Source of the DNA: Obelidium mucronatum
Lineage: Eukaryota > Chytridiomycota > Chytridiomycetes > Chytridiales > Chytriomycetaceae
Direction: 5' to 3'
DNA: 64,000 nt
Assembly: GCA_025765595.1 (NCBI GenBank)
Contig: JAIVFH010000084.1
Span: 62,001 to 126,000 of the forward strand
How positions within the stretch are numbered: the first letter of the stretch is position 1; the number at the start of each line of letters is the position of its first letter. A model generated the notes under the pieces. It searched no databases. It saw nothing but the letters and a program-made list of their open reading frames with translations, and was not told the DNA's origin. Positions 13,361-62,920 of this stretch are shown piece by piece. Position numbers and translations under genes: made by a program.

Positions 13361-14552
13361 ATTTGTGTATTAAATTGGTGTCGTTGGCTTCCCCACAATG
13401 CCTGATTTGTCTCTGTTGCCTCAACGCCTCGATTTGCTGAAAAAAGTCTTCCTTAGACATCTTTGTTGGCATGATGCTTTCAGGGAGAAGTAATGGGGTC
13501 GCTGTCTGGTCGAAAGAAGTCAGATCCAGCCAAACTCAAATCGCTTTCCGTATGGCTACTGCAAGTGCTGATATTTCCACTATTCAAATCGCTCGGTGGG
13601 AGGAGTAATGGTAATGCGCTGGGTGGAAGCATGATGGGTGATAATTGAATTGCGTGTGGAATACTCTAGCCGCGTGTGCATAAATCGAGCGAATTCCGGC
13701 AGTTCTGAGGGTGCATAAAGGGGTCTCTGCGAGGATTTTGTATTGCCGCCCCGATCTGTTGAGGTGGACATCTTGTGGGTAAAAGTACGATATAACTTTG
13801 AATCTTTAAGCTGTATAACGTTGAGCATTAAGCCAACTAAAAAAGAAGTCTTATTTCAATAATCGAAACAGACCTTTCTCCATTGTGCGCAGTAAGGGAA
13901 ATTGTCCGTTTCAGCAAACGATACGGTTCAAGGGGTATTGTTTTTTGCACACGTCATAGTTGCTGTGTGTATCCTTACGTAGAGATTTAAAGATTGTTTT
14001 ATCCTCTCTGAATCGCGGAAGCTCTCTGTATTTCGTATGGATTTATTGGGCAAGTCCAAGAAACGGATGAGTGACTTACCGATGTAGCAAGAAACAGCCA
14101 TCCCTTTCAGCTGACGACCATCGGAGCCCATCCTTAAATTAAGCCTCATTACTTTCGATTTCATTATGCTAGGCCAAACTGGTTGTTGTGTTACCTCCCA
14201 ATCGAAATGTCTGCCTTGAATCTGCACACAAAACACACTTCCACTCCGAACCTGATGCCTTAGCAGCCGAACTAACTAAAGCAGGAGCATATACTGGAGA
14301 AAGAAGACCAGACGTGCACGCTGCAGCCAATAGCTTTGCGTCTTGAAGAGATTGAATGAACCTAAAACAAAAGAAGGTAAAACCGGCCACGGTCAACATC
14401 TTTATCCACATAGCAGTGTTTTCTATTCACCCGTGGAATGTCTCTTTGACTTGATCTTGGTTCGATATGCTGCCTGACTGCGTGGCGTTACAGCTTGTGT
14501 CTGACAGGACTGCAGCTGGTTGAATCAGAAACCTGGCCGAAGGGCTCTCCAT
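13361..14552 (-). pseudogene. W1: WOPR-domain gene, frame-broken (P-P-S tail class)
   Basis: Outermost array member, transcribed leftward. Exons on the minus strand: 14552-14431 (ends E-T-F-H-G), 14361-14195 (F-I-Q-S-L-Q-D-A-K ... V-R-S-G-S-V-F), 14132-14080 (the 53-base exon, D-G-L-R-W-S-S ... F-L-L-H-R), then about 14032-13875 (K-R-T-I-S-L-T-A-H-N-G-E) and a last exon with Y-F-Y-P-Q-D-V, P-S-E-L-P-E-F and a tail of P-P-S-A-L-P and L-L-L-P-E-S-I-M-P-T repeats ending at the TAA 13363-13361. All WOPR landmarks are present, but the reading frame must shift at least four times (in exon 2, at an A6 run in exon 4, and twice in the last exon). Either a recently decayed gene or a locally error-rich assembly. 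Closest in tail to W2. Confidence 0.7.
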
Positions 14553-14809
14553 CTCAAATCAAAGGGGGTTTTTCGAAACAGTAGACTTAAGGCTAGGCAG
14601 AAAGCAGTGTTGAATACTTGTCCAGATCTGAAGATAAACCGCAAAGAGAAAAAGGATGAGAGAGGGGGAACCAGAATTTTTTCCCCTTTTTGAAATTTTC
14701 CGATTGGGTCGCACGTGCGGCGTCTCGCTCACCAAAATACAAGAAAATTGTAAATGAGACAGATATTACAAAACATAACAGATAAACCATGAATTATTGT
14801 TTATTGTAA

Positions 14810-16014
14810 TTAAGACTTTGAAAGCGTGATTAGAGAAGTAACTGCTATCGCCTCCTTCTGCTGGTGCTCGCGTTTGACTCTCCAGCACTCTTGTTCTTGT
14901 ATTCGCTGCTGCTTCAGGGCCTCGAGCCGCTGAAAAAATGATTCTTTTGGCTGCTGTGTTGGCATTATACTCGTCGGTAGCAGTAGTGGCGTGATTGTCA
15001 GGTCAAAGGAATCCGAAATGGTGGATCCATCGCCAAACTCTTCGTTCCTTGACGATGATGGCGATGGTGTTACGATAGGAAGAATGCTAGGTGGAAGCAT
15101 TATCGGGGTATAATCGTGAACTTGATGAATAAGCGCCGCATGTTTCAAGAAGGGTGCAAATTCTTGCAATTGTGATGGTGTTCGAAGGTGTCCTCCTTGT
15201 CGTTGAACTCTGGAGTTTGAATGTTGACTTCTTTTGAAAGATACATCACGTCTTTTGTTTCGAAATAGGATGTTATCGTGTATCTTAAGTGATAAGGGGC
15301 TGATTAGTCATTGCTCAGAGTTCATGGTTGCAATACCTTTTTCCGTCCGTTCCCGTCAACGAAATCACTCTTTTACAGAAACAGGCGTTTGGTAGCTTGC
15401 GATTTCTCAATGCATTGGTGCGTCGGAAATTTAGGTCGCCAGGTCGAACCTCTTCCAATATGCTGAAATTTTTTTATGGTTGTTCAGGGGGCACGCTTTT
15501 TTTGCAATGTCACAATAGTGATGAAACTCGTACCGATAGACCAGGAACCCTCTATCGCTGCTGGGATGAGACCAATTGAGTCCATCCTATGAAATAAACA
15601 AGTCTTTTAACAAGGATGTCATTTGTTGCGTTTGTGTTTCATACCATCCATTTCCGTCCACTTTCGCGATGAATGTAAACGCCACCGCTGCGCACTGATG
15701 TTTCAATGGGCATCTCAGAGGCAAGTCGAATGCAACCCGCAAGATATGCAGCCAATAAAAGCTCTGCGTCCGTAATCGTTTGAATGTATCTGGGGGAATC
15801 CAGTGGGTATAGATTTCATCAGATTGGTGTCAAACCACAAAAGAAAAGGGAGCTATACAACGAACCCATAGAACGACTCTGAAGCAGATTGGCGGTACTC
15901 CGTTTGCTGCGCTGCGGTGGTCGTGTAGTTTGAAGCCATGAAGTTGTGTGCTGCTTCTTGAGGCGGTGACACCATACTTCTCATGGCCTTCGCTCTTGTG
16001 CAATCGATGGACAT
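14810..16014 (-). CDS. W2: WOPR-domain putative transcription factor (P-P-S tail class)
   Basis: Minus-strand exons: 16014-15866 (ends S-E-S-F-Y-G), 15789-15645 (Y-I-Q-T-I-T-D-A-E ... S-V-R-S-G-G-V-Y), 15586-15534 (53 bases, D-G-L-N-W-S-H ... F-L-V-Y-R), 15462-15337 (E-E-V-R-P-G-D ... C-K-R-V-I-S-L-T-G-T-D-G-K-R) and 15283-14810. The splice phases are the same as in W3-W6. The tail has R-T-P-S-Q-L-Q-E-F, M-L-P-P-S-I-L-P, L-L-L-P-T-S-I-M-P-T and a charged helix (F-F-Q-R-L-E-A-L-K-Q-Q-R). A one-base frame break sits in the last exon near an A4 run (about 15232-15240 on plus). Family knowledge: WOPR proteins bind DNA in the nucleus and control switching or developmental programs. Its target here is unknown. 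Confidence 0.75.
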
Positions 16015-16633: not shown

Positions 16634-17725
16634 TCAAACAGCTATAAAGCTGGATGGCAGCAGAAGCGGCGAGATTGGATTATCATCGCTGTCATAATCA
16701 GTGTCGCCGTCAGTACTGTCTTCGAAAGGAATAACGGAGGGCGGCAAGGCAATTAACTCTGGTGTATGGCGGGTGGAATAAATAAGTCGAATCAGATTTT
16801 TCAAGATATCTTGAAATTGGGGCATGGTAGATGGCGGTTTTAACATCTCTGCATTGTTGGTGCTGATGTCATTTTCGGGAGAATGTGTGTACAGGTGGAG
16901 AATATCGACAGGATTGAAGTACGAGACAATATGGAATCTATGCGGATATTCAATCGTATTAACAAAAAAACACATTCATTCTCAAGTAGTACCTATATCC
17001 TTTTGTGGATTTGACAGTAATGCTTCGTTTGTATAGCCCATTTTCGACTAACTGAGTGCCTTGGGCCAGAGAAACTTCCGAATTTGATTGGTCGTGCATT
17101 AAACTATTTTCGACATGGCCGCACTGCATCTGTTCGACTTGTCTGCGTTTTTTGAACATTTGTAAGCAAAGAGAGCCAAGCACCACTTCGGAACATTGCA
17201 CGTACCTGCTTAGCGTGAATCGACCGACAGCTTTCGCAGGAGACCACATCATCCCATCCTAAAATGCATCAGAATTAGTTGTTTTCTGTAAATAAATAAT
17301 AACTCACATTCCACTTGAGTGCATCGTCCACAGTCATAATGAACACACTGCCACTCCGAACATGAACATCACAGGCTTGATTCAAAGGAACTAAATCTAT
17401 TGACGCAGCTTCAGCTAGAATAGCGGCATCGATGGGTTCCTTCACAAATCTAAAATTGATCTCAAAAACCCCTATCATCAGTCCGCCCAAAAAAAGAAGC
17501 CTCATACCCAAAGAACGATTCGCTCGACTCCAAAGTAAGCTCTGGAGACGCAAAGGTGTGGTCTAGGGCGGGGAGGTTTGACTGGGCACTGCTGCTGCTT
17601 CTTTGGCTAATCAAGACTGGAGTTGGGGGCTTCGAGTCTCTTTGCAGAGGAGGCATTGGATGAAGCGTTGTCTTTGTATCCCATCCAGAGGCACAGAGCG
17701 TGAAACACATTGTGCTTGCTGCCAT
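16634..17725 (-). CDS. W3: WOPR-domain putative transcription factor (P-P-S tail class)
   Basis: An intact five-exon gene of 288 residues: 17725-17508 (ends S-E-S-F-F-G), 17449-17308 (F-V-K-E-P-I-D-A-A-I-L-A-E-A ... V-R-S-G-S-V-F), 17258-17206 (53 bases, D-G-M-M-W-S-P-A-K), 17142-16993 (N-G-L-Y-K-R-S-I-T-V-K-S-T-K-G-Y) and 16937-16634 (H-I-V-S-Y-F-N-P-V-D-I). All junctions are GT...AG and the phases agree. The tail has A-L-P-P-S-V-I-P and P-L-L-L-P-S-S, with no Cys motif. Two Cys-free substitutions in part b (G-S-D-G replaced by S-T-K-G) make it one of the more divergent copies. It is divergently oriented to W4, with which it shares a 0.9-kb upstream region. Confidence 0.82.
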
Positions 17726-18629
17726 TGTCGTTTGCAATACTGTGGAACGTTGTGGGGCACTTTTTTTTTTATTTAGATCCTTTATGTGCATGTTCTAGAT
17801 TCTCCGCACTTTGAAATCTGTGGACGGTCGGGGAAGCGGCTGTTGTTTTTTTTTTAATTGGATAAGGAGCGTTGAAGGGGTTTGGATTATTGCTTTAAAT
17901 AAGTGTACATCCTGTTTATTTTATAGAAAGCAGTGGTCTAGTCTGCTTCTAATGCCAAAACATATTTACTACAACAATCCCAGTCGGCACAAGAAGGAAA
18001 TAATAATAAATAGCGATGAAAATTATAATCATTAAGATATCAGTGGATTTGAATTGGTTCTTGTTGAGAGCGTTTGTCTGAATAACACAAGACGGGTTTC
18101 TCGCGTGTCATCCAGATTAAGTCAAAAGCACCCGGGGTCCCATGCAAAACAGTAGATCGGTTCCAGAAACAACAAACACCCGTCCAACAAACACCCGTCA
18201 ATTACTAAAACATCGTTGATGGTCCCACCAAACATGGTTGCTTAGAAGTATGTCAGCAGAAAAGGAGGGATGTTTCGGAAAGGGCTGGCATGCTGTTTGG
18301 TCAGTCACAGGACGGTCACGGCCGAAAACTTCAAAGAAATTTAATTAAGAGATAGGAAACTCTGCGCTTCTCAGACGCAAAAGAGGGGAATCAGCTGTAT
18401 GGGATTACTGCCAAAGAGGGCCTGGCTTTCCACACATTTAGCCGCCTTTGGATAAGATCCGGCGAGTTGGCCAATAGTTGGCCGCCACTGAAACGAAAGA
18501 ATGAAGCGGATTAAATTTTTAACAAATGAACAATTTTTTGAATTGGGAGAGGAAGAAGTCTTCATTAAGAAAAAAGGCAGTATGACGAATTTTTCCTTAA
18601 TCTCTCGCGAAAAGCAAGCACCTCCAGAT
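17726..18629. promoter_or_regulatory. Divergent upstream region between W3 and W4
   Basis: This 0.9-kb stretch separates the last minus-strand member from the first plus-strand member, so it should contain both promoters and marks the orientation switch of the array. No convincing ORF, RNA gene or TATA motif stands out. The plus strand is open in one frame from 18501 into W4, but the first ATG with family-like sequence is at 18630. Confidence 0.45.
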
Positions 18630-20190
18630 ATGAACACACAGCACTACCCGCACCACTACCCGAACAGCACTCATCCAGTCCCAATGATTCAAGTTGTTCC
18701 ACCCCCTCCGGCTGATCATCAGAATAGTGTGAGAGATAACCCCTCGAGACCAACGGGCTCGATCCGACCCCTTGTCAAGCCAGACACCACAGCTCAACGC
18801 CACCCGGTACACTACTACAATTCCCCAGAGACGTTTCAGAGCCATACGAATCTGTTTATCTCGTCTCCGGTCGAAGCGCAGCTGTTGTTGGAGGCGGGAC
18901 TTGCTGGCAAGTACCCGATCCTCAACGCAGGCCCAACAATGACAACTACTACGCATATTAAAAGCGGCACTGTGGTTATTTTCGCTGAAAACAATCGGTA
19001 CAGCCAGATGATTCGATGGCGGGTGTGTATTGTTCTAAAGATTTGTCACGTTTTTATTTTTTGCTGCACGCTGTTGTTGGCGAAGGGTGGGATCATCGAT
19101 CGCTGACTTAAACTCTTTCTAAAACAGGATGGAAAGCGATGGTCTCCGTCGAGGCCGCAGGGGCCGTATCTTTTGTATAGGTATGAGCGGTGCTGTTTTG
19201 ATCGCTTCTGTTTACTAAAATAACATTTGGGTAAATCTTGTAACTGAAAACAGAGAAGTCGAAGCTGCCTCAAAGAAAACCTTTGTCGGTTCGATTCATG
19301 AAGAGTCTACAAGGTGTGTTGGCTTATTTTTGGACGTGTTATTGTTGTTGTTGTTGTTGTTTTTGTTGTTTCACAGTGCTTCTTAAACCATTTAATGATA
19401 TTTTAGATTCACAAACCTCGCACTGAGACCCAACTGTCGGTTTATTCCGAATGGTTTAGCCAAGCGGACAATTGGTTTAGTTGGAAGTGTGAGTTTCTTT
19501 TTATCGAATTCCCTTCTATTTCGAATACAATATGCTCATCTTTGGTCGCAGGATGGTCTCAAATATAGAGTCATCAGCTACTTCTATCCAGTTGACGTTG
19601 AGCATTTTTTTCATGAAAATGGACAAGGAAGACTCGTATCACCATCACAATGCCCAGAGTTCCAACCGTTCCTACCAGCAGTTGTTGCGGAAGGAAACAA
19701 TCTCCCAGATTTGTCCAGCGCAATCAAACAGAGCCGCGTAGATCGCTTATCATCAACGCCCGAGGCTCTTCAACCACCAACCACCCACACCATTGAGTCA
19801 AGCGATCAGGAACTCCGCAGTGGCTCTAGTCGTCGATATATTTCACCGAGATCAGCGATAACTCCTTATGACCGCCAACCTCAACAAAGCCAAATGACAA
19901 AAAGTTCACCAAGATACGAACCTGGCAACAGGCTCTATGCATCCCGTGCTGAAATCCCAAGAATCCCACCCTCTCAACGTGAGAGAACCGAGTCCTCGCC
20001 AGAGTTTGTATTTGAGAAGCATTGCATCTTCCAGATCCAGACTTCTGTTGTTTGTCGGTGTCCTTGTGGTGGATTGGGCGTACGAAAAGCTGTGGATTAC
20101 TTTCGTGGGCAAGAAGACTGGACGAGGGGGCCGGTCATATTGGCGCCTCTGGTCGGTGGATACTGTCACGGTGCTGGGCGGTCTTCTTAA
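18630..20190 (+). CDS. W4: WOPR-domain putative transcription factor (C-P-C-G-G tail)
   Basis: Exons 18630-19022, 19128-19180 (53 bases), 19254-19313, 19407-19488 and 19552-20190 give 408 residues with consistent phases. The N-terminus is His/Pro-rich. The usual first motif is replaced by N-L-F-I-S-S-P-V-E-A-Q-L-L-L-E-A, a change shared only with W5 and W6. The rest follows: I-K-S-G-T-V-V-I-F-A-E, R-W-R, D-G-K-R-W-S-P-S-R-P-Q-G, P-N-G-L-A-K-R-T-I-G-L-V-G-S and V-I-S-Y-F-Y-P-V-D-V-E-H. The linker is Ser/Pro/Gln-rich. The tail is C-P-C-G-G-L-G-V-R-K, D-Y-F-R-G and P-V-I-L-A-P-L, with a 12-residue extension. W4, W5 and W6 split part b over an extra pair of exons (60 or 51 bases plus 82 bases), so they form one recent clade. 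Confidence 0.87.
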
Positions 20191-20438: not shown

Positions 20439-21937
20439 ATGAACTACGACTCGAATGACCAAAGAGACTTGACTGCCATGGAAGCGCTGCTGCAGATGGC
20501 TGTGGCAGAGGATCTTGAGCCCTTCCAAGCACCACCAGCCAGAAGCACCCAACAGATCAGCTATCGTACTTCTAATCCAGTCGCACTACACCATACACAT
20601 GCTAGCACTCCTCCTATCCCTCCACAAACTCCCGCATTCAACTGCCACAGTCTATTCGTCAAGACTTCCTTTGAAGCCCATTTGATTGTTGAAGCTGCAA
20701 TTGGGGGCAACTTCCCTATTGTAAACGCTGGTGTATCTATGAACATCGGCAGCAGTCCCCACATTCAGTCTGGTTCTGTAGTTGTATTCGCCGAGAACAA
20801 CCAGTTTTCGCAGATGCTCCGCTTTCGGGTAAGCGTGTGCATATGTGTGTATATTGGCACTAAGCACCCTCCTGACTACACCAAAAATACTTAAACACTA
20901 GGACGGAAGAAGGTGGTCCCCTTCAAGACCGCAAGGTCCTTTTCTGTTGTATCGGTGGGTTTCTTTTTTTCTGTCTCCATCTCCACGGTCGTCAGCGTTA
21001 TTTTTTTTTTATCTTTCTCATCTCCCAAAATCACATCTCATGACAGGGAAGTAGAAGCAGTGACGCAACAAAGACGTCTGAAAGAAGCATCCACAAGGTT
21101 TCGCATCTTTAATTTTAAAATTTTGCGTGTCTTTGAGGTGCTTAAAACCAAAACATGAAAATACAGATTCACCAACGTTGCTTTACGAGTTAATTCCCAA
21201 TTTGTCAGTAATGGATTGGCGAAGCGGACTCTGCGCGTCCTTGGCAGTGTGAGTTCTTTTTTACTAAATTTTTTTTATGTCACGCACCCATTTGGGCGAT
21301 TCGAAATGGTGCCAAATCGAAAAAAAAAGACACGCCAACACTTTAATATTTATTAATCAATGTAAAAATCACTTACGAAACAATCACACACGAATAGGAT
21401 GGACTGAAATACCGTGTCATCAGCTACTTTTATCCAACCGATGTTGAGCATTTGTTTCAAGAAGGGAAAACGGGAAGGCTAATCCTTCCATCCAACAGCC
21501 AGGAATTCAAACCGTTCATTTCGAAGCTGGAGGGTCTTGAGCTTGTTGGCCGGCCGGATGCTTTTCCTGCACCATCGTCATCATCAAATGGGAGTGAAAC
21601 CAGCACGAAACGAAAACGGTTCAGGAATTCCCCAGATGACTCATATACACCAGTTCTCACGCGAAGTAGACTAAAGTCAGCAGCGATCTCGGAAGCTGTT
21701 AAAGCAAAGTCGCCCGCTCTTGAGTCCTTGAACTCTATTATTGAGCGCAATGCCATCATCACCCAATCCGTGCTTGAGGGGAACTTTGGAAACCACGCAA
21801 TATTTCAAGTCAACAGGCCCATACCACCGCAATGTCCTTGTGGAGGTCTGGGTGTGAGAAAAGCTGCGGATTACTTTCGCGGCGAAAAGGAGGCATGGAC
21901 TGGAAAGTCTGTGTGGCTTGCACCGTTGAATCATTGA
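20439..21937 (+). CDS. W5: WOPR-domain putative transcription factor (C-P-C-G-G tail)
   Basis: Exons 20439-20828, 20902-20954 (53 bases), 21047-21097, 21167-21248 and 21398-21937 give 371 residues. It has the W4/W6 form of the first motif (L-F-V-K-T-S-F-E-A-H-L-I-V-E-A). It then has I-Q-S-G-S-V-V-V-F-A-E, R-F-R in place of R-W-R, D-G-R-R-W-S-P-S-R-P-Q-G, N-G-L-A-K-R-T-L-R-V-L-G-S and V-I-S-Y-F-Y-P-T-D-V-E-H. The linker is shorter and more charged than in W4. The tail reads C-P-C-G-G-L-G-V-R-K, D-Y-F-R-G-E and V-W-L-A-P-L. The predicted protein is nuclear and DNA-binding by family. Confidence 0.86.
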
Positions 21938-22264: not shown

Positions 22265-23786
22265 ATGAACAACTTAAACGTACTGCTAGCAGCTGCTGAA
22301 TCCTACACAGAGCCACCCCCATCTGCAAGCTCACTATCCGGGATGATGCGGCCGGAAGGAACAATCACCATCAATCGAAATCAAACTGAGGAGATCCAAA
22401 ACACCGAACCCGAACAATACACTGGATTTATGCCATCTCCTATCGATGCCCGCTGGAAGACGAATCTTTTTATATCAACGCCATTCGAAGCCCAACTAAT
22501 CCTCGAAGCTGCTTTGAATGGATGTTTCCCCATCCTGAACAGCGGGCCCTACAGTTCTCCTGCATTGCCGTCCATTCAATCCGGAACTGTTTTGATTTTC
22601 GCTGAAAAGGGAAGTCATTTCACTCAAATGGTTCGGTTTCGGGTATGTTTGGGGGGAAATTTAAGAAGTGTGGTCGTGATGAGCCCACATATTACTAATT
22701 CGGATCTCTTGGTTTTTAAGGACGGAAAAAGATGGTCTCCGTCTAGGCCTCAAGGTCCGTTCTTGCTTTACCGGTAAGATATCTTTGATTTGATTTTCTA
22801 TGATTGATTCCGATCACCACATTTTTCGATATCTTTCACAATCTCATCTCCAAGGCCTCATTTTTTTTATCTCTTAGTGAAATCGAAGGATTTGGAGGAA
22901 TTACGCATGTTGGATCAGTGATTGAGAGGTCGAGCAGGTTAGGTTGTCTTTTCATCTTTTTTTTTTTTTTTTTTTTTTTTTTGGTGATTCTGAAGTCCCA
23001 AAAAAAGATTCGTCAACAAGGCGTTGAGAGAAAGATGCAGATTTATTCCAAACGGTTTAGCGAAACGATCGATTGGATTAACCGGAAGCGTTAGTATTAC
23101 TGTGTTTTTTACTTATTGACTGATGCCATTATCATATTTAGGACGGTCTTAAATATAGAGTCATGTCATACTTCTATCCTATGGATGTGGAGCATATATA
23201 CGCGTCTGGTAATACTCACGGTGTCTTGACGATTCCATCAGAATGTCCAGAATATCAATCCTTCATCAAATCTGCAAAAGATCTGCAAGAACCAATACCC
23301 CGTTCTGTGTCTACTGTAACCTCGAGCATTTCGCAGCCTGCATCAAATGCGCAATTTAGTTATATCTCGACACAGCGACCTTGTCAAAGCAGTCTTCCAT
23401 CAACCCGATCCAAACCTTCGCGAGCCAACAGCAAGTTACCCTATTCTCGACCTCCTCCAATTTCTGAAGCCGCAAGCATACCCGAAACAGTTTCCAAGCG
23501 GAATCCTTCTCCAAGCTGCTATTCGCAACTTTCTGCAACAAGTTCCGATAGTCTTGAGATCTCGCCACACGCTGTATTCCAAGTGGAGAATCTGGACAGC
23601 ACCGGCATGGGTCGCTTATTTGAAAATCATGCCGTTTTCCAGTTGAGAAGAGTTCGGCGCGGGGAAAGCCAGTGTAGTTGCAGTGGGCTGGGGATACGCC
23701 GAGCTGTTGATTATTTTCGGGGACAAGAAGACTGGACTGAGAGGCCAGTTTATCTTGCACCATTGTTGAATTTTGAAAAACGGTAG
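22265..23786 (+). CDS. W6: WOPR-domain putative transcription factor (C-S-C tail)
   Basis: Exons 22265-22642, 22721-22773 (53 bases), 22878-22937, 23008-23089 and 23142-23786 give 405 residues. I chose the ATG at 22265; an in-frame open stretch reaches back to 22001. It has the W4/W5-type first motif (L-F-I-S-T-P-F-E-A-Q-L-I-L-E-A), R-F-R before the 53-base exon, D-G-K-R-W-S-P-S-R-P-Q-G, N-G-L-A-K-R-S-I-G-L-T-G-S and Y-F-Y-P-M-D-V-E-H. The tail shows C-S-C-S-G-L-G-I-R-R, D-Y-F-R-G and P-V-Y-L-A-P-L. The intron before exon 4 carries a run of 26 T (22957-22982). Confidence 0.86.
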
Positions 23787-23787
23787 T

Positions 23788-24118: not shown

Positions 24119-25814
24119 ATGATTCCGTACAGCAGCTATCCGCAGCAACAACAATCTGTTATCAATATGGGCAGGGGTCTTTCTGCAAGCCGACTTCACG
24201 ACATGACACCTCCCCTGCCACCACAACCAGTGTACATCTTCCACCACACTTTCTTTGGGTTTATTAAAGACAGTCACGATGCCGCTTTGGTTATTGCCGG
24301 CTGCGTGGCAGGAGATCTACAGCCCTTCAACACGGCCCCAATGAACTCCACAAGCATCCAAATTACAAGCGGAACTGTGTTGGTATTTCAGGAGAATTCA
24401 GGAACGTCGATGGTCAGGTGGCGGGTCAGTCATCAATCATTGCCCCAATTGTCTGTTTTTTTTTTCCTTTAGATCTGGGCGTTTGTTGTGACATTGTCAA
24501 CAGATTGTCGCAGTTCCTTCCTTATCTTTGTTTGCGTCTGTTGTCTTATAGGCGTGGTATTCATATTTATTTTGTTCTTAGGATGGCAAGCGGTGGTCTC
24601 CGTCTAGACCGCAGGGTCAATTTTTACTGTATCGGTGAGTCTTTCCTCTCTGGCGCAGTGCTCCTTTCGCCCCAATCACCTTACTATCCATGGGCATGAA
24701 GAATATGCTGTGACTCAGGAGATGAAATTACGCGCTTTCTTGATTTTCTACTGAGTGCATTTCGGCGGATGACTACTAAGAGAATAATTTGACTCATCAA
24801 ACCACAAACATCACCACAAAAAACAATCTATCAACAATAGAGAAGTAGGAAGCTAACTACGAATCCAAATATGCATCATGAAGTTGAATTGAGTACACGG
24901 TTTGTCAACATGTCCCTACGCGGTAGCTGCCGGTTTATTCCCAATGGCCTAGCAAAGAGAACGATTGGGTTGGTTGGAAGCGATGGGAATAGATATAGGT
25001 GAGAATCAACTTTGTTAGTTTAAGCGAAGAATTCGGAACTATATTATGTTTTTCCTTTGTATTGAGGCCCTTTGTATTGAGACTTTCTTCTAAAAACCTT
25101 TTGAAAACCCAGAGTCATCAGCTATTTTTACCCGCCCGATGCCGAAAGATTTTTGAAGATAAAAGAGACGACGTTATGAGGCAAAGCAGACAAGTTCTAT
25201 TTATGCCGTCTCAGTTGCAGCAGTTTTTCAAATACCGAGATGTGGACGAGGCAGAACGGTATTCGCCACCGCCAAACTCCAGAAAAAGAAGCGCAAGTAG
25301 TAGCAGTGAACGAATCGTGAGCCCCCAGCGACACGGAAGCGGGGGACTTTGTGCACAAACCTCTTTAGGCACGTATTCCCCACCACTGCCAGCAAGAGCA
25401 CCAACTCCTCAACATTGTTCAACAGTAGCTTTTCGCCATCCTACACACCGCTATAGGCCATACTTACGGCATCCATCGTCTCCTCCTCTACCACCTCTCC
25501 CTGTTTTGGCACAACAGCAGCCATCGCCTTCAACAACGTCAAGCACAGTATCACTACTGCCACCATTTCAAGCAACAGACGAACGAGCTTACTTTCGGGG
25601 CGAAAACGCATTCCACCCAATGTTTCAAGTGAGCGATATGGGAGGGTGCCATCAAAAAGCTACTGGCGGCAATTTCGGCCATAGTCATAACAGTGATGTC
25701 CGTGCGAGCTGCCCGTGTGGGGGATTAGGGATTCGGAAAGCTCATAATTACTTTTGGAATGATCCCTTTTGGTTTGATAGGCCGATACAGCTGGCGCCTT
25801 TAAAAAAGGTTTAA
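24119..25814 (+). CDS. W7: WOPR-domain putative transcription factor (C-P-C-G-G tail)
   Basis: Exons 24119-24424 (T-F-F-G-F-I-K-D-S-H-D-A-A-L-V), 24582-24634 (53 bases), 24849-24998 (N-G-L-A-K-R-T-I-G-L-V-G-S-D-G-N) and 25113-25814. At exon 3 the acceptor used in sister genes (after 24840) leads into a stop after five codons. An AG eight bases further on (24847-24848) keeps the frame and reads well. In exon 4 a run of five T (25150-25154) must be one base longer for Y-F-Y-P-P-D-A-E to continue into the linker and tail. That looks like an assembly error. The tail is C-P-C-G-G-L-G-I-R-K with P-I-Q-L-A-P-L. Confidence 0.78.
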
Positions 25815-52120: not shown

Positions 52121-52962
52121 ATGGCTCAGTTCAACTACCAGCCGCCGCCGCAACAATCGTATCCGTACGAAGCAAGTGGATTACCGCTGGCTACTCAGAG
52201 CGGAAACCAGTCTCAGCCAAGCGGATCATGGCACAACCACCACCACCAGCGGCAGCAGCCTATCACTCCCCAATACCCCCCCTCCCAGACTCACTATGCT
52301 CCTCAGGGCCACACTGGTCACCACCAAAGTTCATCCAATCAGTCGAGTAGCTCGCATCTGTCGCAGCAGCAACCTCACGCCACTGCCAATGCTCGCTTCT
52401 ATCCTCCCCAGCAACATTCGACCCCTCAACCAACTCAGCCGACTTCGAGCCAGCAATCAGAGACGTTCTATGGGTGAGTTTTTGTCGATAGAAGGAGGAC
52501 ATTTATTTTATATGGGGAGATGGATCCTGAAACCCGGCCTGGGAGACTTTATCAGCTTTTAATTGATAAGACTTAACTTACTGATACCAAACAAAAAAAA
52601 ACCCCCCACCACAGATTCGTCAAGGACGAAATAGACGCCAAAATCCTCATTGAAGCGTGCGTAAACAAGGAACTGCCATTAATCCCCGACATCCCATGCG
52701 GCGGGGAAGGTGCCTCCTCAGGAAAAGTCTACGTCTTTTGTGAATCAAGCTCACAGATTTTGAAGATGCGGTGGCGGGATGGTTTGCATTGGTCGAGTTC
52801 GCGGATTTCGGGGAATTTTTTGTTGTATCGGGAAGTAGAGTCGACGGATGTTCCGACGAATGTACAACGGGCGCAGGAGAAGGAGGCTACGGCGCTGTTT
52901 ACGACGAGTAGTTTGAGGCCTTATACTCGATTGATACCCAATGGTGAGGGCTTTTGGATTTC

Positions 52963-52993
<31 letters not shown>

Positions 52994-53612
52994 CGATCGG
53001 AGGCTAAATTTCTATATGTTCAGGATTGGCAAAACGGACGATTAGTTTAACAGGATCCGATGGCCTTCGTTATAGGTAATTAGATTGTGTCACTCGAGGC
53101 GAACTACCCTAACTTTTTTTTCTATACACAGAGTCATCAACTACTTTTACCCAAAGTTTGTTGAACATCATTACGCGCCTCCAAATCTTCGACAAATCTT
53201 TGACCCGAATGCTCGCGGTATGCTTCAGATGCCGTCTCAGGTGCCGCACCTCCAAAAATACAATACCAGCAGTCAACCGGCAACAAAATCGAATTCTACA
53301 GCTGGCGCAGCAACATCATCAAATATACAATCAGATTCAATGGAAACCCTTGCGCCTCAATCCCACGCCATGCGAAACAGTCCCCAAAACACTGCCATCA
53401 GGCTACCGCCGCTGGAAAATAACAGGAGTCAAACATCACAGTATTTACCAGTTCGACCAGATGTCCAGCAACAGCACTTTCATCAACATCAGCCTTTATA
53501 TCCAGGAATAAGAGAACTATCCAAGGCGTTCGAGGGGAATCCGAATTGGGCAGAGTCGCCTGTTATATTGGCGCCGCTGCTCCTACAAGGAGTGAAGTGG
53601 GGAGATCGATAG
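52121..53612 (+). CDS. W19: WOPR-domain putative transcription factor with Gln/His-rich N-terminus
   Basis: Exons 52121-52473 (ends S-E-T-F-Y-G), 52615-52943, 53024-53075 and 53132-53612 give 404 residues. The N-terminal 110 residues are rich in Gln, His, Pro and Ser, typical of activation regions. Part a is F-V-K-D-E-I-D-A-K-I-L-I-E-A-C ... S-S-G-K-V-Y-V-F-C-E. R-W-R-D-G-L-H-W-S-S-S-R and L-L-Y-R-E-V-E are uninterrupted. An intron splits N-G | L-A-K-R-T and contains 30 T in a row (52964-52993). Part b is I-S-L-T-G-S-D-G-L, then Y-R | V-I-N-Y-F-Y-P-K. The tail keeps N-W-A-E-S-P-V-I-L-A-P-L, but the Cys pair is lost. Confidence 0.87.
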
Positions 53613-54020: not shown

Positions 54021-55237
54021 ATGACCATCGACACAACAAACGCACCAAAAGAAACCTGGTTTGGTTTCGTCAAGGACCGAACAGATGCATTGCTCCTGAT
54101 CAATGCTTGCTACTCGGGAACCCTTCAACCAATTACACTACCGTTTAATTCAATGTGCCTTCGGATCAGAAGTGGTTCCGTGGTGGTTACGGTTCAAAAG
54201 AATGACAATCAAAACTACTGTTTCAGATGGAGAGACAACCTTCATTGGACTGCTTCCAAGCTCACGGATAACTTTATGCTCTATGTATGTATATTTCGTT
54301 ATTATATTTTTGCACGTGCGGAATGATACTTTATGACGTATCCGACCGTGTTAATTCCTCATACCATCCCATGGAACTAAAACATTATCTGTATTCTTTT
54401 CTTCAGCGCCAAGTCCTTCATGTCAACCAGAAGGTCAAGTCACGCCAAAATACAATCAACAAATCCTGCCGATTCCACAATGGAAGTCTTCGCAGCAAGT
54501 CCGAGCTAATCGCCGACGGCCTTGCCAAGCGGTCATGGGGAACCGTTGGACCCGATGGCTTCTACTACCGCGTCACCCACTACTTTTACCCGGACCATGT
54601 CGAGCATTTTTATAATGGCGGGGAAAAGAGTGCATCTGCACCTGCCTTCCAGCGGCCGTGTGATATTCCCATGTTTGAGCAGTACAAGGAAATCGCGGCT
54701 GAGCAGTTTCGTGTTTTGGAGTCCAAGCCGGCGTCGCCAAAACAGAAGGAGCTTGCCTTGCCGGCAGAAGCTGTCGCTTTTGAACCTGTTGTTGCAAAGT
54801 ACAACGGGTCTGTTGTTCCACAGCCACCACCACCACCACAACAACAACGGGTCGATGCTGATGAGCAAAGACGCGGTTCAGTTGCTTCCTTGAAAAGTGC
54901 CTCTACAACCAAGGCCAGCAAAGCTGTTCCAAAGAGGCTGCAACAGGCAAAGCAGGTTATTCCACTTGAGCACGTGACGCGTCATGAAAGCATTCACCAC
55001 CAACGCCAACAACAACCAACCTACCACCCCCAAGCTCAACCATCTCATCAACGGCACAGCCAACACTACCAGCAATCACATTCCTTCTACAGCCATTCAA
55101 CACAATCTTCATCACATCATAGCCATTCCAAAACGTGCGGATGCGGGCCTCTGCCGTCTTTGTTGCGTAGCATCGACCGATTCCCACGGTTTGATGAGCG
55201 TAGCCTTATTTTACCGCCGTTGAGAGTTGTGGCGTGA
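54021..55237 (+). CDS. W20: WOPR-domain putative transcription factor, divergent tail
   Basis: Two exons, 54021-54284 and 54407-55237, join in phase 0 within L-Y|R to give 364 residues. Part a is T-W-F-G-F-V-K-D-R-T-D-A-L-L-L-I-N-A-C ... I-R-S-G-S-V-V-V. R-W-R-D-N-L-H-W-T-A-S-K replaces the usual D-G-x-x-W-S-x-S-R. Part b is A-D-G-L-A-K-R-S-W-G-T-V-G-P-D-G and V-T-H-Y-F-Y-P-D-H-V-E-H. The linker has a Pro run, a Lys-rich stretch and a long His/Gln/Ser-rich segment. The tail is a modified C-G-C-G-P-L with L-I-L-P-P-L. Confidence 0.85.
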
Positions 55238-55772: not shown

Positions 55773-56856
55773 ATGACTAACAATGCCAACATGAGACCGG
55801 CACCCCAGCGGTTGACCACGCAACCAAACTACGACTTTGAAACTTTCTACGGTAAATATGCTTTAATTTGGGTGTTGCTCTCCCACACTATCAAAATAAA
55901 AAGGTGGTTCTTTCCTTTGTTAAATGACTCGTGTGTTTTTTTCTTTACAGGATGGATTCAAAATCGGGCTGATGCGTTCTTGGTTATTGAAGCTTGTGTT
56001 ACGGGAATGTTGCATCCTGTCATGCCCTATATGCATACAAGCACTGAAATCCGAAGCGGATCAGTTGTAGTCTTTACGCAACGGTCGACGGATGTCAACT
56101 CGATTCGATGGAGGGTGAGTGAGGAAAAATAACGAGGGGCGACCAAATTTCGAGTTAACCTGTAAACAAAAAAAACAGGATGGTCGAAATTGGACAACTT
56201 CAAAGCTTTCGGAAAACTTTTTGCTGTACAGAGAGACGGAGCCGAAAGGAAGTCCGTATCGTGGCCCGGAAACCTGTGCACTCTTTCCTGCTGGAAGCCT
56301 GAGACCCAACACTCAATTGGTCCCTGATGGAATGTGCAAACGGACAATGTGAAATAATTATGATATATATAGACTATATATGTTGTTCTAATCTCCCTCT
56401 TTTTTTTGGTCTAGAACTTTGACTGGGAGCGATGGCTTGAGATATCGTGTGATAAGCTACTTTAAACCCAAAGACGTTGAGCATCGCGTTTCAAGAAAAC
56501 GAGCAACTCTAGGCCTTGGATTGAAAACTCCTTCGGAATTACACGAATTTGATGAAATCAAGCGGGTTTTAGCTTCAAGGGACCAGATTCTTTCAAATTC
56601 GCCAAACAACCAATTAGATTCAAGCACGTCCCCAAATTCAAGACTGCCAGGAATATCTGCTTTAATTAAGGAGAATTCAATGCCTGAGACACTATATAGG
56701 ATGCGGTATCAAGGCAGGTTGGAAACGTTTGGTTGTAGTTGCGGTGGACTTGGCGGGCTTCATCCATTTGATTACTTCCGTCGAGATCCGTCTTGGCTCA
56801 ATGAACCGGTTATTCTTGCCCCTTTGTGGGTGACGCACTATTTTTTAAAGAATTAG
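55773..56856 (+). CDS. W21: WOPR-domain putative transcription factor (C-S-C-G-G tail)
   Basis: Exons 55773-55851 (ends F-E-T-F-Y-G), 55951-56114, 56179-56348 and 56415-56856 give 284 residues. Part a is W-I-Q-N-R-A-D-A-F-L-V-I-E-A-C ... I-R-S-G-S-V-V-V-F. The R-W-R|D-G intron is kept, while L-L-Y-R-E is continuous. Part b is P-D-G-M-C-K-R-T, split by an intron at K-R-T-I | T-L as in W16, then T-G-S-D-G-L and V-I-S-Y-F-K-P-K-D-V-E-H. The tail is complete: C-S-C-G-G-L-G-G, D-Y-F-R-R-D-P-S-W and P-V-I-L-A-P-L. The N-terminus is very short (about 25 residues). Confidence 0.87.
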
Positions 56857-57233: not shown

Positions 57234-58332
57234 ATGCCGGCGAACGACTCTGAATCCTTGATACAGCCCGGCACCATACAGCAGAGTGGGTTGCTAGAAC
57301 TTGAAGCGTTCAAAAAAGCAGAGACTTCAACATCCTACCCTCCAAGTCCGGAGCATACAAACGATTGCCGGATTGAGACGTTTTTTGGCTTTGTTAAGGA
57401 CAGTTTCGATGCGAAACTTGTGGTTGAAGCATGTGTGCAAGGTCTGGCCTCCTTTTTCCACTTGCGACTGTTCTTAACACTGAATTGCAAATAGGCTTAT
57501 TGAAAACGATCCAACAGATTCCTTCTGGGATATCCCCGAAAATTCGATCAGGAACGACTGTAGTTATTCAAGATCAGATTGGGAATACTGGATGGAGGGA
57601 TGGCCGAAACTGGAGCTGTTCCACACAAGAGCGGGATGCTGATGGGTTCCAGTTATACGTGAGTCGAAAACGAAAAGCAGATTACCTGGAACTAATCATT
57701 GTCAAAATCAGCGGGAAGTAGAATCAGACACACTTCCTTCAAACCATCGAGGACGACCGATGAGACGAGAAAGGAGCCCTCTCTTCTCAGTAACCCATAC
57801 TCGACCTGGATCTCGTCTCATTGTGAATGGGATGGCAAAAAGAATTATTCACATAACTGGCAGTGATAATTGCCGATACAAGGTCATCAATTATTTTCAT
57901 GTGTGCCATGTCCAACATTACTATCTGGTCGACAACAGCTCGGATTCTAAAACTCGGTATCGAGGTTCTGGCCCATTGAGGACACCTACTGAACTCCCTG
58001 GATATTCAAAGATTCGAGCGGTGTTACTTTTGAATGGGGAACGGTTTCGGAAACCGTTTCCCATTTGTAAACGAGAAAAGAAGAAGGCAGTTGAACAAGT
58101 AACGGCAGCTATTGAAGTTTTGAAAGAAATCAGGCCAGTGAGGGTTTTGGCTGTAAATGAGTTGAAGGCTGAAAAAAGTGGAGGGCACCCTTTGGTCTTG
58201 AGATTTCAAGCAGAGGGGGCACGATATGGTGGAACGGGGATGCAACAAGCAATATCATTGTTTCAGCAAAACCCCGATTGGGCCGAAGCGCCAGTTCTCT
58301 TGCCACCTCTTGGCACAAGTGGCGATAGTTAA
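57234..58332 (+). CDS. W22: WOPR-domain protein with intermediate tail
   Basis: Exons 57234-57441, 57495-57658 and 57712-58332 give 330 residues. Part a is I-E-T-F-F-G-F-V-K-D-S-F-D-A-K-L-V-V-E-A-C, with the first intron at V-Q-G | L-L. It continues I-R-S-G-T-T-V-V-I-Q-D, W-R-D-G-R-N-W-S-C-S and L-Y | R-E-V-E. Part b is V-N-G-M-A-K-R-I-I-H-I-T-G-S-D-N and V-I-N-Y-F-H-V-C-H-V-Q-H. The linker is helical and Lys-rich, as in W23-W25. The end (N-P-D-W-A-E-A-P-V-L-L-P-P-L) still follows the first tail class without its Cys residues. It therefore sits between the two tail classes both in position and in sequence. A 16-bp near-perfect palindrome lies at 58033-58065. Confidence 0.86.
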
Positions 58333-58576
58333 AAGTTGTACAAAAAAACGAGTTCGAATAAAGCATCAGTCCAACCTTATTTCCGTCTGACAAACTCCTT
58401 TGAAACACTCTCGAAACTCGCAGGATTCAAATGTAAAATCACGAATGAATTTTCTCCAAATGACAAGTGGAGATGGCCACAAAAGCCCACTACGAAAAAG
58501 GAGGCAGAAAAATCGAGTCAACAAAAAATCGAATTTTGTGCCCTGTTGCCTTCTTTCGCTGATAACTGTCAAAGCA

Positions 58577-59841
58577 ATGCTCTCTCCAACACTGTCAACG
58601 CAAGCGGCTTCCTTTGACTTTGGAGTGAATATGGTCCAGTCGCCATTGGAGGCACTTTGTCCTGTCAGAGGGGTCGTGACCAGCCCTTCTAGGTCTGATG
58701 AGTTCAAACCCACATCGACAGCTGAACCAGTTCGTATCGAGACTTATTTTGGGTATGCACAGTCCCCCTTCGCAATCTTAGCTCGTCTTAACCTTTTGCA
58801 ATGCCACCAGATTTGTGGAAAAGACTGTCGATGCCTATTTTCTGGTCGAGGCCTGTGTTTCTGGAACTCTTCCCTGTGTCAGAGAACCAATTCGCCAGCC
58901 AATGCTTCCTGTGCGAAGTGGCAGTGTCATTGTATTCGAACTGACTGATAATGACAAGAAGATGAAATGGAATGTGCGTATACGATCACCACCCAAACAA
59001 CTTCCAAATCTCCAAACTAAACATTATTCTCTGTTAATTATATAGGACGGAAAACAATGGTCCATTGCAACCAAGGAAGGCAGCTTTGTTTACACCAGGT
59101 ACCATATTTGACATAATCTATTTATAATCATTCCAAAACTTGTTAACTGAAAAATGCCAATTAATAATCTCGAAACAATACAGAGAGGTCGAACCAACCA
59201 ATTCCAAAGTCCACGCACGAGCTACTCAGCGAGAAAAAAGCAATCTCTTTGTGTCATGCAAAGTGAGACCTGATACCAAACTGATCCCCAACGGCCTTGT
59301 CCGCCGATGCATCTCCATGAATGGAAGCGATGGAAAACGATACCGAGTGCTGTCGTATTTTTACCCTTGCCATGTCCAGCAATTTTATGTGTCTGCGGGC
59401 AAGACCCGTTGGGGGCGTGGCCCTTTGCAGACCCCTTCTGAACAGCCGAAATTCGAGCGCTTCATTAAGCAATGGATTGCCTTCAACTTTGCGAAAAAGC
59501 AAAAGCAAAAGATGGAGGACGAGTTGTCGCCTTTGCCGCCAAGTATTATCCCGCTTGATATGCGTGCTCCACAACAGGGTGTGCCAGTGGATGATTGGGA
59601 CCGTTTGGAGCAGTTGCAGAAAACTCAACCTCAAGAACAAGAGTGCATTAAAACTGTTGGTACTGTCGAGGCTGGTCCATTGACGCCATCTGTTTCTCCA
59701 GCGCATCAGAAACAAACAGAATCTTCATCGCGAAAGAGAACTTACTCTGTCATGAATGGAGCCGTTGATGGCATTCCTACACCCATTCAATCGCTCGATG
59801 CTGTTGATTCTTTACTGCTGCTTGCACAGCAATCTAATTGA
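58577..59841 (+). CDS. W23: WOPR-domain putative transcription factor (P-P-S tail class)
   Basis: Exons 58577-58752 (ends E-T-Y-F-G), 58811-58973, 59046-59098 (53 bases) and 59184-59841 give 349 residues. The frame is open further 5' (to about 58400), but the ATG at 58577 gives a typical N-terminus. Part a is F-V-E-K-T-V-D-A-Y-F-L-V-E-A-C ... V-R-S-G-S-V-I-V-F. The micro-exon is D-G-K-Q-W-S-I-A-T-K. Part b is P-N-G-L-V-R-R-C-I-S-M-N-G-S-D-G-K and V-L-S-Y-F-Y-P-C-H-V-Q-Q-F-Y. After P-L-Q-T-P-S-E-Q-P-K-F comes a helix of about 35 residues (F-I-K-Q-W-I-A-F-N-F), then P-L-P-P-S-I-I-P-L-D-M. No Cys tail. Confidence 0.87.
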
Positions 59842-60362: not shown

Positions 60363-61380
60363 ATGAACTATGCGGAATGGACTCATTGCAATCTTGAAAA
60401 CGAATCATCATCAAGACATTACAATTTACCATATCAATATCCGGAGACTTTGGGCAAGCTTTCAGTACCGCCGCTTGAAGACACACCTTGTTTGAGTACC
60501 GAAACCTTCTTTGGGTAAACGTCACAGTTCTCTTGTTTAGTGATAGCAGGTGTCTTAAATTTTAAAATTCATGAATCAGTCATGTTCACAATCGTATGGA
60601 CTGTTATATTCTTGCTGAAGCTGTCGCTGCTGGTGTGCTCAAGCCTTATATGATGAATGTTGTTGTCAGACCAAAAAGTGGGAGTGTCTATGTTGTCGAA
60701 CATGAGCAAGTGTTCAAGGTGATAAATTCACTGGCTTTAGAATGGCTTCAAAAACCAAATTTAGTCGTTATATCTATTACACTTTCTAGGATGGTTGTGT
60801 ATGGTCCAATGGAACGGTGACAGATTCATTCCTGACATTTCGGTAAGATACAGCAGTATTCGAGAATATGTGTTTCGATTTAATATGCTAATATAAAACA
60901 AAAATAAACAGGGAAGTCAAGAAAGATTGTCTTGAAAAGGAACAACGACGCACGAAAAAGCACGAAAGAGGGCTCGTTAAGCGAGTTCTTTCCATCACGG
61001 CATCAAACAATGAGACATATCAATTAGTTTCATACTTTTCTTTCAAAGATTTTCAGCTTTTGTATTCCAAGGAGATGCGGGCGTCTTCCGTTTGTTCAAG
61101 GAGACTGCAGCGGCCATCTGGAATGCTTCAATACCAGCAGTTTATTGTTCAATGGACTCAATTCAAGAGAATGAAATATATTCAGGATGCAATTCACGCT
61201 GAGCTGACTCCACTTCCGCCGAGCTTGTTGCCTTTCAATAATGGAGAGAGTCAATTTCCAGCTGATAACTGGGATGGTGAGTCACCCAATGTCGAGAGAT
61301 ATTCCGACACTCTCGGTGACGTTGAATTACCAGAATCATTGATTCTACCTCCTAGCGCCTTACCTTTATGGAGTTCTTAG
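60363..61380 (+). CDS. W24: WOPR-domain putative transcription factor (P-P-S tail class)
   Basis: Exons 60363-60514 (ends T-E-T-F-F-G), 60580-60718, 60790-60842 (53 bases) and 60912-61380 give 270 residues. Part a is H-V-H-N-R-M-D-C-Y-I-L-A-E-A-V ... P-K-S-G-S-V-Y-V-V. The R-W-R position reads V-F-K. The micro-exon is D-G-C-V-W-S-N-G-T ... F-L-T-F-R. Part b is reduced: the usual N-G-L is replaced by E-R-G-L-V-K-R-V-L-S-I-T-A-S-N-N, then L-V-S-Y-F-S-F-K-D-F. The tail has Q-F-I-V-Q-W-T-Q-F, L-T-P-L-P-P-S-L-L-P and L-I-L-P-P-S-A-L-P-L. Loss of several basic residues in the DNA-binding core makes its binding ability uncertain. Confidence 0.83.
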
Positions 61381-61690
61381 AGAATAAAAAAATGTTCAAT
61401 GATCGATAGGGCTCCTTTGTTTCTCTCATTTATTGATTTGTGTTCGTTCTTTTCAATTACCCATATTGCCTTGAACGGCAGTATCCCTCTTTTCTCTTGT
61501 AACCAAAGCAAAGGGAAATCTGTTGCAAATGGATTTCAAACACAAAAAATCCAAGAATTAAGAAAATTTTCATTTCCACCTCAAGTGCGTGGCAAGAGGG
61601 CACGCATTATCAGCATTGAAACTCTCTTCAAAAACACTCAAAAGCAATTGTTTTGCGAAAAGTTTGAAGCCAAAAGGAATAAGTCGAAAC
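61381..61690. other. Intergenic W24-W25
   Basis: Spacer. Open frames run into W25 from upstream, but the ATG at 61691 is the most family-like start. Confidence 0.35.
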
Positions 61691-62920
61691 ATGGAAAACA
61701 ACTGCCGCAAGAACACTGGCGCCAAGTTGGAATGCGGGGAAGTGGGCAGCACATCCATCCCACCGCTGCTGAGTCCTTGCACGGATTCAGATGTGGAGTC
61801 CAACAGCGGCATCTGCTTGAATGAAAGTGACTCTGCTCTGAACACTCAAGAGACCTTCTTTGGGTATGTTTTAAAACACCAAAGAAGCTTATTCACCCAA
61901 TGACTGTACTAACTTCAAACGTAGTTACGTAAGAGACACAGTCGACTGCTATATTCTTGTCGAAGCTGTCGTGGCTGGACTGCTGCGTCCATACACTGGT
62001 GCCAGCGGATCTGTCAGAAACGGAACTGTTCTGGTCATCCCGCTCGACTCTCGCCCAAACAAGTTTATGGTACGGTCGACATCTTCTTACTCCCTCGGGC
62101 TTAAATTTATTTATTTCTACAGGATCACCGCCAATGGTCCGCTGCAAAGACGCAAGGCAGCTTTAAAGTTACGAGGTGTGTGTGTGGGCAAAAATCACGT
62201 GAAATCGATAATCGGAAAATAATCTAAAAATCGAAAATTTCCTTCTTGATTTATAATTCAAATTAAAACAGAGAGGTCGAGGCCGTCAACACGTTCCGTC
62301 ACTCGTCATCCGCAATTAAAACTCGACGCAATAGCTGTGCAGGTGTTCCCGGGGCTGTATTCCCCACATGTACGGCACGCTTTGGTACAAGAATCAAAGA
62401 CCAAGGACTCATGAAGAAGTCTCTCTCCATGAATGGATCAGATGGTCATTTATACCGCGTTATTTCGTACTCATATCCCAAAGATGTGGAACACTTCCAC
62501 AAGCTCGAGCCTGCCACCAATCGCCTCTCCCACTTTTCGCCGCTCCAATGTCCTTCTCAAATCTGTCAATACCAGCAATTCATTACAAAATGGGTTCAAT
62601 ACAACAAGCTCCGGAAAATGCGCGAGCAGATTGAATCAGAGCTTGTTCCTCTTCCCCCAAGTGTTTTCCCTGTCGAGAATCTTGCACCGCAGCCTGAAGA
62701 TAACTGGGAACTCTCTGTAACACCACGACCGGATCACTACTATCAACTGCAACAAGGCGAAAATGGGTTCATTAGTTTCGATGAAATGGACAGTTTGTTG
62801 CCCTTGTCGCTGCCACCAAGTATTTTGCCATTGAACCAGCCAAAGGAAGTTGCAGTGGAACAGATTCGACAAGCGCTGTTACGTGAACAACGAATCATGC
62901 AGCAGAATAATCAATTCTGA
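61691..62920 (+). CDS. W25: WOPR-domain putative transcription factor (P-P-S tail class)
   Basis: Exons 61691-61863 (ends Q-E-T-F-F-G), 61925-62069, 62123-62175 (53 bases) and 62272-62920 give 339 residues. Part a is Y-V-R-D-T-V-D-C-Y-I-L-V-E-A-V-V-A-G-L-L-R-P ... V-R-N-G-T-V-L-V-I. The micro-exon is D-H-R-Q-W-S-A-A-K. Part b is D-Q-G-L-M-K-K-S-L-S-M-N-G-S-D-G-H and V-I-S-Y-S-Y-P-K-D-V-E-H-F. The tail has the Q-F-I-T-K-W-V-Q-Y helix, L-V-P-L-P-P-S-V-F-P, L-S-L-P-P-S-I-L-P-L and a terminal charged helix (E-Q-I-R-Q-A-L-L-R-E-Q-R). That end matches the end of W2 at the opposite edge of the array. It is the last member before the SEC63 gene. Confidence 0.87.

Follow-up and report, generated by a model that had tools for sequence, protein, structure and literature searches.

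A tandem array of 27 WOPR-domain genes in the chytrid Obelidium mucronatum, part of it older than the split between genera

Proteins with the WOPR domain govern cell type and morphogenesis in many fungi. The present analysis concerns a tandem array of 27 WOPR genes in Obelidium mucronatum (Chytriomycetaceae, Chytridiales), most of which lies in a window of 64,000 nucleotides, the whole stretch of DNA analysed here (C84:62001-126000, on a 152,575-base contig of a genome assembly of 48.3 Mb and 694 contigs). The WOPR family (Gti1/Pac2, PF09729) includes Wor1, Mit1, Ryp1, Sge1 and Ros1, and a portion of PMC4917244 gives two WOPR genes as the number in most fungal genomes. In contrast, a genome profile search with apparent alleles merged puts the number of WOPR loci in one haploid set of Obelidium at 48 or more, which bears out the copy number well above the fungal norm proposed in an initial annotation of this DNA. 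The Obelidium genes further differ from the described family in their tandem arrangement and in a CxCGGL tail, which is unmatched in the 29 scanned proteins outside the array subfamily. The Hox and Rhox homeobox clusters of animals resemble the array in that they are tandem, diverged regulators of one family with members common to related lineages. However, the array represents a different protein family in a single-celled fungus, and the likeness, as far as the sequence shows it, does not extend to ordered expression or shared enhancers. A portion of PMC7833464 describes a similar case of adjacent duplicated genes of one transcription factor family, the Catharanthus cluster BIS1, BIS2 and BIS3, which differs in that its products are plant bHLH proteins and that three genes are named there, against 27 in the array. 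No earlier report of the array or of a chytrid WOPR expansion was found in titles and the opening parts of abstracts, in a collection from which most subscription papers are missing. The consulted part of PMC10406608 places Gti1/Pac2 among the families that changed dynamically in early fungal evolution and names no array, and the few terms searched for had zero matches in PMC8887899 and PMC12115818.

We interpret the locus, with a probability of roughly 0.7, as an old and stable tandem set of 27 transcription factors of a chytrid WOPR subfamily, which share a tail, have diverged in their recognition loops and have mostly been kept as specialists. This interpretation is built on the observed domain, number, linkage, constraint and loop pattern of the units, on the age of ten members, and on the fold predicted for one unit.

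Composition of the array

Units were located with a profile hidden Markov model combined with a GT...AG intron model (spliced Viterbi), seeded with units read by eye and then iterated. The search detected 25 WOPR units in the window, 22 on the plus strand (18.8-62.6 kb) and three on the minus strand (13.76-14.44, 15.25-15.88 and 16.8-17.5 kb), while a control on one strand of the window, shuffled once in blocks of two bases, reached a top score of 2.8 bits. Twenty units score at least 100 bits, in a single piece or with fragments summed; u01, u02, u03, u10 and u24 fall below, and u01 scores 18-27 bits in each of three pieces. The Pfam profile PF09729 matches all 25 domain models at E ≤ 0.001, with no unit omitted, u01 being represented by its three joined pieces and u12 by a model bridging a broken frame. 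Thus, the 25 Gti1/Pac2 units of the initial annotation pass, without a failure, the profile comparison it had proposed. The ordered motifs that it saw in all 25 are present in most of the units but degenerate in about seven (u01-u03, u10 and u23-u25). Its tandem series also stands as 25 units in a row, although three are on the minus strand, the row is interrupted, and two further units (u26 and u27, at C84:128.5 and 130.4 kb) lie past the window on the same contig, raising the total to 27. The row breaks twice, first for 6.7 kb between u13 and u14, where a transposon and non-WOPR open reading frames (ORFs) are located, and again between u25 and u26, where ORFs match Sec63 and DnaJ domains weakly and below the cut-off. 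The start-to-start spacing of the plus-strand units has a median of 1.8 kb. Direct or inverted repeats of at least 60 bp were absent from the window in a search with a 16-base seed, indicating that the copies are well diverged. No tRNAs were found in the window. Deposited Obelidium mucronatum proteins (P0003, P0014, P0023, P0032 and others) match window units at 97-100%.

The second haplotype is represented by contig C174. It aligns with the array contig at 94-97% identity, starting at window base 8568 and running up to the end of C174, and contains all 26 units within its span in the identical order. The units of the window are as follows.

u01, 13764..14441, minus: fragmentary WOPR unit in three pieces, probably decaying; allele C174:5184-5868; PF09729 match on joined pieces
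u02, 15145..16014, minus: WOPR unit, altered recognition loop; few allelic changes, 2 frame gaps
u03, 16634..17791, minus: WOPR unit, altered loop; 4 frame gaps against the allele; allelic dN/dS 0.29
u04, 18501..20190, plus: WOPR unit, CxCGGL tail; groups with Siphonaria P0078
u05, 20439..21937, plus: WOPR unit, CxCGGL tail
u06, 22265..23786, plus: WOPR unit, CxCGGL-type tail
u07, 24119..25814, plus: WOPR unit with its tail exon near 25.71 kb; groups with Siphonaria P0076
u08, 26242..28497, plus: WOPR unit, tail; groups with Rhizoclosmatium P0090
u09, 28708..30184, plus: WOPR unit with its tail exon near 30.06 kb; related proteins in Siphonaria, Rhizoclosmatium, Podochytrium, Physocladia and Chytriomyces
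u10, 30450..31481, plus: WOPR unit, altered loop; uncertain gene model, 6 frame gaps against the allele
u11, 32554..34122, plus: WOPR unit, tail; groups with Podochytrium P0107 and Chytriomyces P0068 and P0059
u12, 34843..35578, plus: WOPR unit; frame broken here, domain open in allele C174:26489-27088; groups with R. globosum P0081
u13, 36419..37507, plus: WOPR unit, tail; covers PF09729 positions 1-167 of 168
u14, 44242..45075, plus: divergent WOPR unit
u15, 45620..46918, plus: WOPR unit, tail; groups with Rhizoclosmatium proteins; predicted structure (P0014)
u16, 47548..48724, plus: WOPR unit, tail
u17, 49184..50146, plus: WOPR unit, tail
u18, 50775..51623, plus: WOPR unit, domain without intron, weak tail match; groups with Podochytrium P0096
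u19, 52121..53612, plus: WOPR unit, W..PV.LAPL tail
u20, 54021..55237, plus: WOPR unit without tail match; groups with the first domain of Podochytrium P0002
u21, 55773..56856, plus: WOPR unit, tail; groups with the second domain of Podochytrium P0002 and with Rhizoclosmatium P0027
u22, 57234..58332, plus: WOPR unit, altered loop, weak tail match
u23, 58445..59841, plus: WOPR unit, altered loop, PLPPSxxP-type tail; allelic dN/dS 0.03
u24, 60363..61380, plus: WOPR unit, altered loop; allelic dN/dS 0.85, relaxed and perhaps decaying
u25, 61691..62920, plus: WOPR unit, altered loop, PLPPSxxP-type tail; allelic dN/dS 0.15

Recognition loop, tail and constraint

The predicted structure of u15, the one array unit modelled, has WOPR-DNA complexes as its sole strong matches and shows the WOPR fold. 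In this domain, a D-x-x-x-W scaffold stabilizes the recognition loop, as described in part of PMC9252788. Both the Asp and the Trp are kept in 25 of the 26 aligned units, the exception being u10. The [ST]xS[RK] signature that follows the scaffold is kept in 19 of the 26 and is gone in u02, u03, u10, u23, u24 and u25 and, judged from the unit's own sequence, in u22. Across the 26 units and 21 orthologue pairs, the recognition loops are more unlike between units than between orthologues.

Many units are closed at the C-terminus by the tail C-x-C-G-G-[LI] ... W ... P-V-x-L-A-P-L. A profile made from 12 array tails (those of u07 and u09 among them) matches 14 of the 26 simple array models; once u07 and u09 are added, where an additional exon encodes the tail, 16 of the 27 units possess it. 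With classes assigned by hand from the tree, the tail is matched in 66 of 91 proteins of the array subfamily (class A, Obelidium array proteins included), in none of the 20 proteins from the other chytrid WOPR class and in none of 9 further proteins; several of the 25 class A proteins without a match are partial models. The match ends a median of 2 residues short of the C-terminus. Besides PF09729, no Pfam family was matched in two full-length proteins that bear the tail, u13 (E up to 0.01) and the paralogue on C89 (E up to 1). The AlphaFold2 confidence of the tail is middling, with 10-residue means of 44-78 from residue 301 of u15 and means of 47-76 over residues 351-400 of a Siphonaria u09-type protein, and we therefore make no claim on its fold. 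Units u23-u25 bear the PLPPSxxP-type tail instead, and similar stretches are visible by eye in or behind u02 and u03.

The constraint on the units was estimated by counting synonymous and nonsynonymous changes (dN/dS) between the two alleles of one individual, leaving aside u01, for which there is no full model, and u27, whose allele is out of reach. Over the WOPR domains of the 25 units u02-u26, 194 synonymous changes at 2851 sites and 92 nonsynonymous changes at 9485 sites correspond to a dN/dS of 0.137. By region, in the 19 units that remain without u02, u03, u07, u09, u10 and u12, the ratio is lowest in the last 45 residues (0.11) and the WOPR domain (0.13) and higher in the linker (0.32) and the N-terminal part (0.43). 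The conserved tail, between alleles as constrained as the DNA-binding domain, should have a partner. The altered-loop units as a group give 0.20, or 0.16 without u24. Two of them look relaxed, namely u24 and u03, the latter also by its frame gaps, while the frame gaps of u10 may be model error. The frames of u12 and u26 are broken in the array haplotype and open in the other, which could reflect either a null allele or an assembly error.

Age, linkage and competing explanations

Relatives were collected in three protein searches, two of which scored about 8000 candidates each, and the figures for relatives are lower bounds. At least 120 proteins were found; among the matches listed, 113 of 120 are from Chytridiales chytrid genera, a placement looked up for four of the genera. 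Eight pieces from seven proteins, each a short or a second domain, were set aside ahead of tree construction, and the tree comprises 103 of 145 rows, after removal of u02, u03, u10, u14 and u24 for their long branches and of redundant, fragmentary or long-branched relatives; u01 is in no tree. In this phylogeny, which the initial annotation had called for, 10 of the 21 array units (u04, u07, u08, u09, u11, u12, u15, u18, u20 and u21) each group with proteins of other genera, and all ten groups were recovered after removal of 16 loop columns. Constraining the 21 units to one clade is rejected (log-likelihood difference 786, approximately unbiased test p = 6.9e-06). These results indicate that at least ten members were distinct before the genera split.

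In each of the genomes of Podochytrium, Siphonaria, Rhizoclosmatium sp. and R. globosum, orthologues of different units lie on one contig, and in two Chytriomyces species a u09 type shares a contig with further WOPR genes.

Podochytrium sp. JEL0797, 43191-bp contig: _000566, a single predicted protein with a u20-type domain ahead of a u21-type one; _000567, u18 type; _000569, u11 type
Siphonaria sp. JEL0065, 24283-bp contig: _008341, u09 type; _008342, u07 type
Rhizoclosmatium sp. JEL0117, 28659-bp contig: _006180, u09 type; _006185 and _006186, u15 type
R. globosum, 1023498-bp (1 Mb) contig: u15 and u12 types
Chytriomyces cf. hyalinus JEL632, 251513-bp contig: four WOPR proteins, u09 type and WOPR genes not orthologous to one particular unit
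C. confervae, 11254-bp contig: g09123 and g09124, u09 type and a WOPR gene not orthologous to one particular unit

Linkage of the orthologues in the relatives is supported by these records. The order u20-u21 is retained in Podochytrium P0002, and the other locus tags, few in number, fit collinearity. Within Obelidium, an intron interrupts the RWR-DG motif between its two parts (phase 0) in 12 of the 26 modelled units and the Arg codon of LLYR (phase 2) in 15 of the 26, and both introns recur in other WOPR loci of the genome. The shared intron sites indicate duplication at the DNA level followed by intron loss.

On the preferred interpretation, each array gene would encode a two-part WOPR DNA-binding domain with a variable linker, to which 16 genes add the conserved C-terminal tail. 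The array would have arisen by tandem duplication of DNA, with at least ten members distinct before Obelidium separated from the genera holding their orthologues and most members kept since as specialists. Since most copies are intact and many are common to related genera, the row is old and resembles a developmental gene cluster. Every unit may bind DNA with its own preference, the common tail may recruit a shared partner, and the units may act at different steps of the life cycle from zoospore to sporangium. Distinct specificities and stage-specific use are what we infer from the sequence, and a role as alternative or stage-specific regulators, as initially envisaged, is plausible. A closer parallel to Hox clusters, in which this early-diverging, single-celled fungus keeps two dozen ordered master switches together since their order or joint control dictates the succession of life-cycle states, each switch having its own loop and DNA site and many sharing one co-regulator through the tail, would be an unlikely extension of this interpretation.

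Several observations weigh against the preferred interpretation. For eleven of the 21 tree units, the relatives found include no clear orthologue, the Siphonaria records, which are the sole partners of u04 and u07 and dispensable for the other eight groups, are labelled UNVERIFIED_CONTAM by NCBI, and gene order in relatives is read from contig sizes and locus tags. The loop contrast partly tracks overall divergence (0.66 versus 0.42 for the rest of the domain), and u09 supplies 6 of the 21 orthologue pairs. The seven altered-loop units may bind DNA in an unusual way; u01, u03, u10 and u24 seem to be relaxed, damaged or poorly modelled, and u12 and u26 are broken in this haplotype. Array position and relatedness are weakly correlated (Spearman 0.18, a value reached in 24 of 2000 permutations), and a strong spatial order of relatedness was rejected on this value. 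The window shows no enrichment for the Wor1 core site TTAAASTTT (1 match versus 2.68 expected), the TTAAAGTTT-like target of WOPR proteins, and so gives no sign of self-regulation via the textbook site.

The initial annotation had proposed a lineage-specific expansion. A recent, species-specific form of it, in which one Obelidium WOPR gene multiplied into the array, would account for the adjacency of all units in one genome and for neighbours that are mutual nearest array relatives (u04/u05, u07/u08 and u12/u13). However, the rejected one-clade constraint, the ten units that group with other genera and the lack of long repeats in the window make it very improbable; for the array as a whole it is refuted, while late duplication of single units is possible. 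Seen across the fungi, the array may nonetheless represent an expansion of the Chytridiales, given the 113 of 120 listed proteins from that order. The contrary outcome that the annotation had foreseen, that relatives hold the same genes as ancient and scattered families, turned out to be half true, as ten units are ancient whereas the genes are scattered only in part. The degraded units could also be taken to mark a relic array of mostly pseudogenes: u01 is fragmentary, u12 and u26 are broken in one haplotype, u24 has a dN/dS of 0.85, and u02, u03 and u10 contain frame gaps. This reading is refuted for most units by the allelic dN/dS of 0.137 over 25 units, by models that mostly have a start and shared splice sites, and by the tail in 16 units, and it has the slightest probability of all.

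A birth-and-death array under selection for diversity itself (for example, in the recognition of self or of intruding DNA) would show fast turnover. The long divergent row with several decaying units (u01, u03 and u24), the 11 units of the tree without a clear orthologue and a third version of the u16-u18 block beside a repeat on contig C274 are in line with it, but purifying selection on the DNA-binding domain, the presence of 26 of 26 units in both haplotypes and the conservation of ten units and their loops across genera render it quite unlikely. A tentative proposal, doubtful but stronger than the preceding ones, applies to the altered-loop units (u02, u03, u10 and u22-u25), which might be modulators, for example partners or competitors of canonical units, rather than sequence-specific DNA binders. 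They have lost the loop signature yet remain constrained as a group, and Ssr4 shares the fold while a DNA-binding role for it is unsupported in the part of PMC9252788 concerned. Nevertheless, the D-x-x-x-W scaffold is retained in six of the seven (not in u10), so that altered specificity is equally possible. The proposal is compatible with the preferred interpretation for the other units.

The preferred interpretation, an old set of specialists, has wider implications. An array of 27 genes among at least 48 haploid loci, with old members common to several genera, suggests a large, differentiated set of regulators behind the development of a single-celled fungus. The array offers a natural paralogue series for asking how the WOPR recognition loop shifts specificity, and allows one to ask whether joint control of clustered regulators also occurs beyond animals and plants.

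Other WOPR loci and neighbouring features

The genome search scores only the best candidates, and the 48 loci are accordingly a lower bound. Outside the array they comprise five loci on C86, four on C50, three on C40, two on C19 and single loci on C89, C37, C159, C163, C8, C2 and C155, the last known from search rows alone. Contig pairs merged as apparent alleles were C19/C206, C40/C122, C40/C326, C37/C262, C50/C173, C50/C443, C50/C348, C163/C472 and C8/C245. The count includes decaying units and leaves out a single short match on C16 and the third block on C274.

The five genes on C86 (54-75 kb; L020-L022) form a second, smaller cluster belonging to the other chytrid class, in which the CxCGGL tail was not found. 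A further divergent group of five loci with a changed loop lies on C50, C163 and C2 (L036, L037, L039, L043 and L046); the pattern used detected no tail in it. The third version of the u16-u18 block on C274 (L019 1-4884) is 94-96% identical overall to both array haplotypes, with 99% identity to C84 over window 49.0-51.6 kb, and adjoins a repeat that recurs with 100% identity on C23 and C109. This block may be an extra copy gained recently, a haplotype formed by recombination or an artefact of assembly.

The non-WOPR features within the row are listed below.

38484..41393, plus: DNA transposon, 2.9 kb, inside the array; 19-nt terminal inverted repeats
63165..63659, minus: Sec63-like ORF, weak match of 21.9 bits (cut-off 25)
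L009:358-1068: DnaJ-like ORF, weak, below-cut-off match, next after the Sec63-like ORF

The transposon is present in the C84 haplotype and not in C174, with a target duplication of about 8-9 bp. Its 620-residue minus-strand ORF has no Pfam match at E up to 1, and diverged or partial relatives of the element occur at five other places in the genome. The gap between u13 and u14 also includes a minus-strand ORF (42408-42929) with weak, below-cut-off leucine-rich-repeat matches. The Sec63-like and DnaJ-like ORFs between u25 and u26 perhaps belong to one SEC63 gene. The array is flanked on the left by exons of a DHX29-type RNA helicase gene (window 4211-6903) and on the right by a signal peptide peptidase gene on the minus strand (L010 1409-2392).

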